From contig NZ_JAFFZE010000009.1 of NCBI RefSeq assembly GCF_025165815.1, positions 124,001 to 188,000 on the forward strand: a stretch of DNA of 64,000 nt, read 5' to 3'. Below, one piece after another: positions 36-1,961 of this stretch. Both the position numbers and the translations under genes were made by a program. Below the pieces are notes generated by a model. It had not been told where the DNA came from. It worked only from the letters and a program-made list of their open reading frames with translations, and searched no databases. Source of the DNA: Actinophytocola gossypii. Its GTDB lineage: Bacteria; Actinomycetota; Actinomycetes; Mycobacteriales; Pseudonocardiaceae. Within the stretch, counting starts at the first letter, position 1. Each line of letters starts with the position of its first letter.

Positions 36-1961
36 GTGCGATGGGAAAGCCAGCGGGTAGACCAGCAACGACAGCAGACCCTGCCCGGGCTGCCGGGTCT
101 CGTGCGCAGTGTGGAGACCCCGGAGTTCGCCGGCATGGTCTTCCACGAGGTGCACGCGAGATCGGTGCTGAACAAGGTTCCCGGGCAGTCGCCGATGCCC
201 TTCCGGTGGACGATCAACCCCTACCGGGGCTGCGGTCACGCCTGCCGGTACTGCCTCGCCGGCGACACGCCGATCCTGCTGGCCGACGGACGCACGCGGC
301 CGCTCGCCGACCTCTCGGTAGGCGACGAGATCTACGGCACCGAGCGGCAGGGCAGCCGCCGCCGGTACGTCACCACTCGAGTGCTCGCGCACTGGTCCAC
401 CGTCAAGCCCGCCTACCGGCTCACCCTCCGCGACGGCACCCGGCTGATCGCCAGCGGCGACCACCGGTTCCTCACCGACCGCGGCTGGCGACACGTCGCG
501 GCGAGTGCCGAACGACGACGGCGCGCGGTGCTCGCCACCGGGGACAAACTCGTTGGCACCGGCGGGTTCGCCTCGGCGCCGAAGGGCAGGGTGGAGTACC
601 GGTGCGGGTACCTGGCCGGCATCGCGGCCGCGTTCGCGGAGCCGACCGACCAGCGGGTGCTCGGCCGGGCTCGGGAGTACCTGACCGGACCGGAGTCCAT
701 CAGCCTGCCGGTCGAACGGCCGCTCGTGCCGAGCGAGGAGTGGCACAAGGGATACCTGGCCGGCGTGTTCGACGTGGACGGTGAGTTCGCCCGAGGTCAC
801 CTCCAGGTGGCCAGGACGAACCGCGCGAACGTCAGCGGGATCTGCGACGCGTTGCTGCGGTTGGACTTCCGGTTCGCGCTGGAGGACCTGGGGCACCGCA
901 GCGGCGTGCAGCGGATCCGGCTGTCCGGCGGGCTCGCCGAGCACCTGCGGTTCCTGCACACGGTCGACCCGGCGCGCACCGGCCAGGGTGAACTGTCGGG
1001 CGTCGCCGTCCGGGGCGCCGAGCGACTGGGCGTCGAGACCGTGGAGCCCCTCGGGTTGGAGCTGCCGCTGTTCGACATCACCACCGGCACCGGCGACTTC
1101 ATCGCGAACGGGGTGGTGAGCCACAACTGCTTCGCCAGGAACTCGCACACCTACCTCGACCTGGACTCCGGCGAGGACTTCGACAACCAGGTCGTGGTCA
1201 AGGTGAACGCGGTCGAGGTGCTGACGGCGCAGCTCCGTTCCCCGCGCTGGACCCGCGAGCACGTGGCGATGGGCACCAACACCGACCCGTACCAACGGGC
1301 GGAGGGCCGGTACCGCCTGATGCCGGGCATCATCCGCGCGTTGGCCGACAGCGGCACCCCGTTCAACATCCTCACCAAGGGCACCGTGCTCTCCCGTGAC
1401 CTTCCGCTGCTGCGGGAGGTGAGCGCCGACGTCCCGGTCGGGCTCGGCGTCTCGATCGCGCTGATCGACCGGGAACTCCAGCGCAGCCTCGAACCGGGCA
1501 CGGCGAGCCCGCAGGCCCGCCTGGAGCTGGTCCGCAAGATCGTCGACGCCGGCCTGCCGTGCGGTGTGTTCGTCGCGCCAGTGCTTCCCGGTCTCACCGA
1601 CTCGATCGACCAACTCGACGCACTGCTGGCGGCGATCGCCGACACCGGGGCGACGGGAGTGACCGTGCTGCCCCTGCACCTGCGTCCCGGGGCGAGGGAG
1701 TGGTTCGCGGCGTGGCTGGTTCGCGAGCACCCGGAACTGGTGCCGAGCTACCGCCAGATCTACGCCAGAGGCGCCAACGCGGACGTCCGGTACCGCCGCT
1801 GGCTGGGGCGGCGCGTCGGCCCCCTGTTACGGCGGTACGACCTGGCCCCCAAGGAAGCCCGACCGGCGCGAGCGGAGGACCCGACCTGGCCGGAGGGCAG
1901 CCTCGCCTCGATTCCCGAGCAGGCCGCCCCGGTCCGACAGGAGCAGCTGGAACTCCTCTGA
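36..1961 (+). CDS. Rv2578c-like radical SAM protein containing an intein
   Basis: The 641-residue precursor belongs to the Rv2578c group of radical SAM proteins. The host protein is residues 1-72 plus 365-641 (about 349 aa after splicing, close to the roughly 340 aa of Rv2578c). The cluster motif CX3CX2C is C66-GHA-C70-RY-C, and the third cysteine is encoded only after the intein (C365). Family motifs follow: GTNTDPYQRAEGRY, FNILTKGT and VFVAPVLPGLTD. A GTG at 18 would extend the protein by six codons, but those codons lie inside the LexA box; the GTG at 36 gives the VRWESQ N-terminus expected for the family and fits leaderless transcription. The function of the family is unproven; DNA-damage control suggests a role in repair or stress. 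Confidence 0.9.
   Translation: MRWESQRVDQQRQQTLPGLPGLVRSVETPEFAGMVFHEVHARSVLNKVPGQSPMPFRWTINPYRGCGHACRYCLAGDTPILLADGRTRPLADLSVGDEIYGTERQGSRRRYVTTRVLAHWSTVKPAYRLTLRDGTRLIASGDHRFLTDRGWRHVAASAERRRRAVLATGDKLVGTGGFASAPKGRVEYRCGYLAGIAAAFAEPTDQRVLGRAREYLTGPESISLPVERPLVPSEEWHKGYLAGVFDVDGEFARGHLQVARTNRANVSGICDALLRLDFRFALEDLGHRSGVQRIRLSGGLAEHLRFLHTVDPARTGQGELSGVAVRGAERLGVETVEPLGLELPLFDITTGTGDFIANGVVSHNCFARNSHTYLDLDSGEDFDNQVVVKVNAVEVLTAQLRSPRWTREHVAMGTNTDPYQRAEGRYRLMPGIIRALADSGTPFNILTKGTVLSRDLPLLREVSADVPVGLGVSIALIDRELQRSLEPGTASPQARLELVRKIVDAGLPCGVFVAPVLPGLTDSIDQLDALLAAIADTGATGVTVLPLHLRPGAREWFAAWLVREHPELVPSYRQIYARGANADVRYRRWLGRRVGPLLRRYDLAPKEARPARAEDPTWPEGSLASIPEQAAPVRQEQLELL
252..1127 (+). other. Intein (292 aa) inserted in the radical SAM cluster motif
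   Basis: The intein runs from C73 (CLAGDTPILLADG, block A) to H363-N364 (GVVSHN, block G), and the +1 extein residue is cysteine. Block B is seen as ASGDHRFLT, and block F as LPLFDITTGTGDFIANG. All residues normally needed for splicing are present: C1, the block B histidine, the penultimate histidine, the terminal asparagine and a +1 cysteine. Two LAGLIDADG-like segments occur in the middle: YLAGIAAAFAE, where the catalytic acidic position is lost, and YLAGVFDVDGEF, where it is kept. The homing endonuclease is therefore probably inactive, while splicing should work. Confidence 0.92.

Follow-up and report, generated by a model that had tools for sequence, protein, structure and literature searches.

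A class 1 intein in the cluster loop of a LexA-boxed radical SAM gene of Actinophytocola gossypii, probably a homing element with a decayed endonuclease

The window analysed here, a 64,000-nucleotide stretch of the Actinophytocola gossypii genome, opens on an Rv2578c-family radical SAM gene that carries an in-frame intein (36-1,961, forward strand, stop codon included) and is preceded by an exactly palindromic LexA-type (SOS) operator, TCGAACGTGTGTTCGA (12-27), whose first base lies 24 nt before the start codon. The gene starts with a GTG at position 36, leaving 35 bases between it and the window start, and encodes a precursor of 641 amino acids: translation reads ...NPYRG-C66-GHA-C70-RY, then C73-LAGDTPILLADG...FIANGVVSHN, and then C365-FARNSHTYLD. 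The N-extein (36-251) ends in ...CGHACRY and holds the first two cluster cysteines, Cys66 (codon 231-233) and Cys70 (codon 243-245; Cys-3 with respect to the intein), both invariant in an alignment of 53 precursors (A2). The 292-residue insert (252-1,127) reads CLAGDTPILL...FIANGVVSHN, the Asn codon at 1,125-1,127 being its last. It is followed directly by Cys365 (1,128-1,130), which is at once the Cys+1 of the intein and, after splicing, the third cysteine of the cluster motif, also invariant in A2, and with which the C-extein begins (1,128-1,961; the remaining radical SAM domain and a tail according to translation and Pfam). The preliminary description had placed an intein at precisely these bases, where it parts the second cysteine of CX3CX2C from the third and has the third cluster ligand as its +1 residue; the reading frame bears this out to the base, and the family models do so with scores well outside what chance would give. 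Another radical SAM gene, of the PqqE family (TIGR02109 at 545.7 bits; L214:618-1721, G000:C41), lies upstream on the same strand and stops about 2.3 kb before the window begins.

An intein in this radical SAM host is already named in a public model library. The whole precursor scores 855.7 bits (cut-off 700) against the NCBIfam model NF038136, "intein-containing Rv2578c family radical SAM protein", which has the same host family, intein and arrangement; nothing essential differs in the window, whose allele is 292 amino acids long and has lost one endonuclease acid. The precursor also passes NF038135 (515.5 bits, cut-off 430) and Pfam Radical_SAM (PF04055, 47.1 bits, cut-off 29.5), the latter together with the CX3CX2C motif that splicing would restore, and the host enzyme probably binds a [4Fe-4S] cluster. 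Its function is unproven: spore photoproduct lyase (SplB) was considered but falls far short in both family models (Pfam SPL 14.6 bits, cut-off 27; TIGR04070 11.7 bits, cut-off 400), and passages of a 2026 paper term the DNA-repair link of the Rv2578c family speculative (PMC12924846). The word "intein" is absent from those passages and from the SplB and PA0069 papers under open licence among the matches listed; more broadly, none of the papers listed in searches of the open-licence literature is, judged by title and start of abstract, evidently about this radical SAM intein.

The insert has the anatomy of a class 1 intein of the LAGLIDADG type, in an open frame throughout. On the precursor, intein_Nterm scores 29.2 bits (cut-off 24.5) and intein_Cterm passes narrowly (16.3 bits, cut-off 15.6; 12.7 and under the cut-off on the intein alone), while Pfam Intein_splicing, with 22.9 for the precursor and 25.9 for the isolated intein, does not reach its cut-off (35.8); the best match to a solved structure is a DnaB intein (4o1r, E 5e-6). 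The splicing nucleophile Cys1 (252-254) completes the CX3CX2C of the precursor, block B reads SGDH (453-464, Ser68 to His71) with Ser where TXXH normally has Thr, block F supplies Asp275 (1,074-1,076), block G the His291-Asn292 of the C-terminal splice site (1,122-1,127), and Cys+1 follows. Across 142 aligned inteins, Cys1, His71, Asp275, His291 and Asn292 are present without exception, and the sixth splicing position checked, Ser68, is Ser in 135 and Gly in 7; these 142, from which L112, L122, L138, L165 and L177 are excluded, are not independent cases, as the two sets they come from overlap in organisms, and 123 remain once exteins within 2% of each other are dropped.

The endonuclease has fared less well than the splicing residues. 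An active LAGLIDADG homing endonuclease has an acidic residue in each of its two motifs. In the window intein the second motif, GYLAGVFDVDG (750-782), retains its Asp, whereas the first, GYLAGIAAAFA (606-638), has Phe128 in the column of the catalytic acid. That column holds Asp in 40 and Glu in 3 of the 67 inteins collected from the order, and the acid is missing both from the window intein and from three Actinophytocola relatives (L113-L115). The loss of one catalytic acid suggests that the endonuclease of the window lineage probably no longer homes. Over the 142 inteins, both motif acids are kept in 74, one in 36 and none in 27, the other five being mini-inteins of fewer than 200 residues, all from the order. 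In these (L063, L064, L065, L066 and L068; 143-190 residues) the endonuclease domain is mostly or wholly gone; as inteins that appear to retain splicing without an endonuclease, they allow the alternative reading that they were domesticated to serve some function.

The preliminary description suggested searching Rv2578c homologues for inteins at the same site, and such inteins proved abundant. NF038136 is found above its cut-off in 66 of 298 genomes of the order and in 14 of 296 drawn from the phylum, where 11 more match across the insert under the cut-off. All 66 above-cut-off loci of the order, together with L062 (under the cut-off), make up the 67 inteins of the order set; L067, whose frame changes inside the intein, is excluded from the 67, and L085 from all counts. 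The 67 inteins range from 143 to 358 residues and share the insertion site without exception, with the proviso that the pattern used to read them presupposed it; in the named genomes the inteins were placed by tblastn matches instead, and all 79 loci with both flanks show the identical junction. This named-genome scan gave at least 560 confirmed relatives, 80 of which were kept, most of them from actinobacteria. The closest inteins among the matches listed all come from Actinophytocola (L112, 86% identical; L115, 85%; L113 and L114, 71%). Records labelled Betaproteobacteria, Myxococcales and Omnitrophota (L145, L166, L170 and L191) carry a same-site intein in PA0069-like enzymes, of which two, at 492 and 481 bits, clear the family cut-off of 360 and the other two, at 356 and 355, narrowly miss it; several of the non-actinobacterial carrier records are metagenome bins, so that their phylum labels may err. 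A scan of viral contigs returned three weak relatives (34-39% identity over at most 96 residues), none with this junction. For comparison, 43 intein-free loci were fetched and 42 used, taken mostly by score order among the matches listed rather than at random. Three loci (L067, L112 and L122) show a disrupted reading in or just after the intein; in L067 the frame shifts inside it, which could be real decay or a sequencing error.

Presence of the intein is patchy. A first tree of 109 host genes places 29 presence changes, and a second one of 106, from which the long branches L062 (3.55 in the first tree), L068 and L107 were left out, requires at least 27, against a mean of 32.8 when presence is shuffled; both are quick trees with several long branches. 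Only 12 of 500 shuffles were as low as 27, meaning that presence is slightly more clustered than random, and only 17 of the 27 changes remain necessary when well-supported branches alone are counted. Close host genes with and without the intein occur side by side (L038/L087, L031/L103). Distances between inteins track those between their exteins (n=123, Mantel r 0.48, a value that none of 999 permutations reached), which suggests much vertical descent. Some pairs across subfamilies show an intein identity about twice that of the exteins, pointing to transfer from one host subfamily to another: the intein of L166, the PA0069-like locus of the Myxococcales record, is 61% identical to that of L026, the exteins 30%. 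Beside vertical descent, the patchy presence, the decay of acids and these cross-subfamily pairs fit a homing life cycle for this intein. Together with the occurrence of the same intein in PA0069-like enzymes of other phyla, they speak for a homing element and against a fixed switch. That the insertion site owes its position to the most conserved stretch of the gene is only partly borne out, as it ranks 66th of 331 by nucleotides and 25th of 331 by residues. The gene family seems to be a target for two kinds of mobile element, the intein and phage Samy, whose integrase inserts into a Streptomyces Rv2578c-family gene according to passages of PMC12924846.

The LexA box named in the preliminary description is real as a sequence: an exact TCGAAC-N4-GTTCGA close to the start codon, and the sole exact LexA-type match in the window. 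In mycobacteria, Rv2578c has an SOS role. In the 7.38-Mb genome the exact palindrome occurs at 10 sites (none for a reversed control), including one that precedes the earliest possible start of lexA (TIGR00498, 243 bits) by some 180 nt and one just 5' of a gene resembling Y-family polymerases (43.5 bits for the best match, under its cut-off); these two positions support the palindrome as the LexA operator of the host, and LexA presumably acts at the 12-27 box. Passages of a study of Streptomyces venezuelae give a LexA consensus in agreement with the window box, tCGAAC-N4-GNNCGa, and list a radical SAM gene among the LexA targets (PMC9380542). With one mismatch at most, the box precedes 65 of 67 order genes with the intein and 41 of 42 without it (Fisher P = 1), and 65 of the 80 named loci, a count that includes L177, whose upstream stretch is meaningless since the locus starts inside the intein; only 1 of 2,180 shuffled stretches has such a box. 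The four PA0069-like carriers, when scanned, have no LexA-type box, the best site having four mismatches. Being equally frequent with and without the intein, the box belongs to the host gene, and a role for it as a component of an intein-linked circuit is rejected on the same counts. An intein and an SOS-type box occur together a second time in this genome, at dnaB (L204:777-4525, G000:C1): its frame of 1238 residues has intein matches in two regions, and the first base of an exact LexA-type palindrome lies 35 nt before its predicted start. The genome further contains a GyrB/ParE-type topoisomerase subunit with another intein (L205:1491-5060, minus strand, G000:C45; 1190 residues, family scores under the curated cut-offs) and an intein-like Hint domain in a protein of 315 residues that shows no clear host enzyme (L203:1177-2124, minus strand, G000:C47).

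The position of the intein has a consequence for the precursor itself: Cys66, Cys70 and the Cys1 of the intein remake CX3CX2C before splicing. These three and Cys+1 are present at all 67 order and all 79 named junctions, as is a C-x-x-C pair corresponding to Cys70 and Cys73, that is, Cys-3 and Cys1 of the intein. The earlier proposal that formation of a [4Fe-4S] cluster has to await splicing loses its footing here, since Cys1 fills the third place in every one of these precursors; a working enzyme before splicing is unlikely, but the precursor may already bind a metal or a cluster. His68, between the first two cysteines, is found in all 109 order genes and all 79 named junctions and is as frequent without the intein. 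A conserved disulfide within the intein was also considered and rejected: among the 67 order inteins, the only column with a cysteine in all is Cys1, and no other column has more than 25.

MoaA, too, belongs to the radical SAM enzymes, and it has a second cysteine cluster motif. For the MoaA intein of Pyrococcus abyssi, a native disulfide between Cys-3 and Cys1 is reported to control splicing, as passages of two reviews describe (PMC3922620, PMC10663303). By these descriptions the likeness to the window intein lies in a Cys at -3 together with Cys1, and the difference in another enzyme and another domain of life. Passages on the Mycobacterium smegmatis DnaBi1 intein offer a second likeness, because its +1 residue is also an active-site ligand (a P-loop Ser that participates in Mg2+ coordination; PMC6195587) and the intein responds to oxidants and zinc (PMC6195587, PMC7360933); it differs as a class 3 intein with Ser+1 in a helicase. 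The SufB intein of M. tuberculosis, reported to be sensitive to oxidation, likewise sits inside an iron-sulfur protein (PMC6195587, PMC8891592), but its host serves as a scaffold for cluster assembly and is no radical SAM enzyme. A 2014 review stated that evidence for physiologically relevant conditional splicing had yet to be discovered (PMC4031507); later papers make a case that oxidants and zinc control the mycobacterial DnaB intein (PMC6195587, PMC7360933).

How might such sensitivity bear on the window? Thiol control of splicing is plausible by analogy, and the analogy shifts the controlling thiol: the preliminary description had assigned it to the +1 cysteine, whereas the P. abyssi MoaA case favours Cys1, paired with the extein Cys-3, as the residue that would be trapped. 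A redox gate could then operate as follows: under oxidising conditions a Cys70(-3)-Cys1 disulfide would block the first step, reduction would let splicing free an oxygen-sensitive enzyme, and the LexA box would turn the whole into induction followed by activation. The invariable Cys-3/Cys1 pair, the redox-controlled splicing that the reviews report for the same pair in MoaA (PMC3922620, PMC10663303) and the exact SOS-type box speak for this. The extein cysteines are however needed by the cluster, so that their conservation is uninformative about a switch, the intein has no further conserved cysteine, the box is independent of the intein and intein-free relatives exist; we regard such a gate as a tentative possibility, and a doubtful one. 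As for the two-step switch proposed earlier, in which LexA induction precedes thiol activation, its evolution as such is weakly supported because the box is equally common without the intein and close relatives lack the intein; a needed switch moreover predicts retention, and the many presence changes argue against it.

A metal or cluster might instead occupy the splicing nucleophile, if the Cys66-x-His68-x-Cys70-x-x-Cys1 of the precursor bound zinc or an iron-sulfur cluster. All four ligands are there at every junction read, and zinc is described, in passages of PMC7360933, as inhibiting M. smegmatis DnaBi1 by binding its initiating cysteine. Set against this, His68 is equally present without the intein and is thus kept for the enzyme, and a folded intein may keep Cys1 away from the loop; metal gating appears improbable. 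Even more of a stretch is a precursor that acts as a sensor, in which CxHxCxx-Cys1 would bind zinc or an iron-sulfur cluster and stall splicing until cofactor loss or oxidation frees Cys1 and Cys+1 takes the ligand place, the DNA-damage-induced enzyme being active only then. At the other extreme, the insert could be a decayed, non-splicing element in an inactive gene. The lost endonuclease acid and the three loci with disrupted reading lean that way, but the frame of the window is open and keeps both the splicing residues and the radical SAM residues invariant in A2, which makes decay of this kind very hard to credit.

We therefore favour, with considerable confidence in the reading as a whole, a mobile self-splicing class 1 LAGLIDADG intein that would have settled at the cluster-loop codons of a LexA-boxed radical SAM gene, its endonuclease since decayed and any thiol or metal sensitivity being most likely a by-product. 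Such a site would suit an intein by offering both conserved codons and a cysteine to serve as +1 nucleophile. Cys1 would form a thioester with Tyr72, Cys365 (+1) would then take the N-extein, and cyclisation of Asn292 would excise the intein, so that the spliced protein (349 residues) would regain CGHACRYC. The splicing residues would be kept because the host protein needs them, and splicing probably occurs, and efficiently. Sensitivity of the Cys-3/Cys1 pair to disulfide formation, or of the loop to zinc, would most likely follow from position.

The window holds an ordinary member of a catalogued intein family, in a position that is unusually suggestive. A single intein lineage occupies this cluster loop in both the Rv2578c and the PA0069-like subfamily of radical SAM enzymes, among records that bear the labels of several phyla, and its presence, absence and endonuclease decay are all visible within that lineage. 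Because Cys1 mimics the missing cluster cysteine, the lineage is a clean natural case in which to set conditional splicing against a merely tolerated position in metal-binding loops, and its main interest is as a tractable test of conditional splicing at such a loop. If splicing did prove to be redox- or metal-gated, the P. abyssi MoaA case would gain a relative from bacteria with a link to DNA damage.
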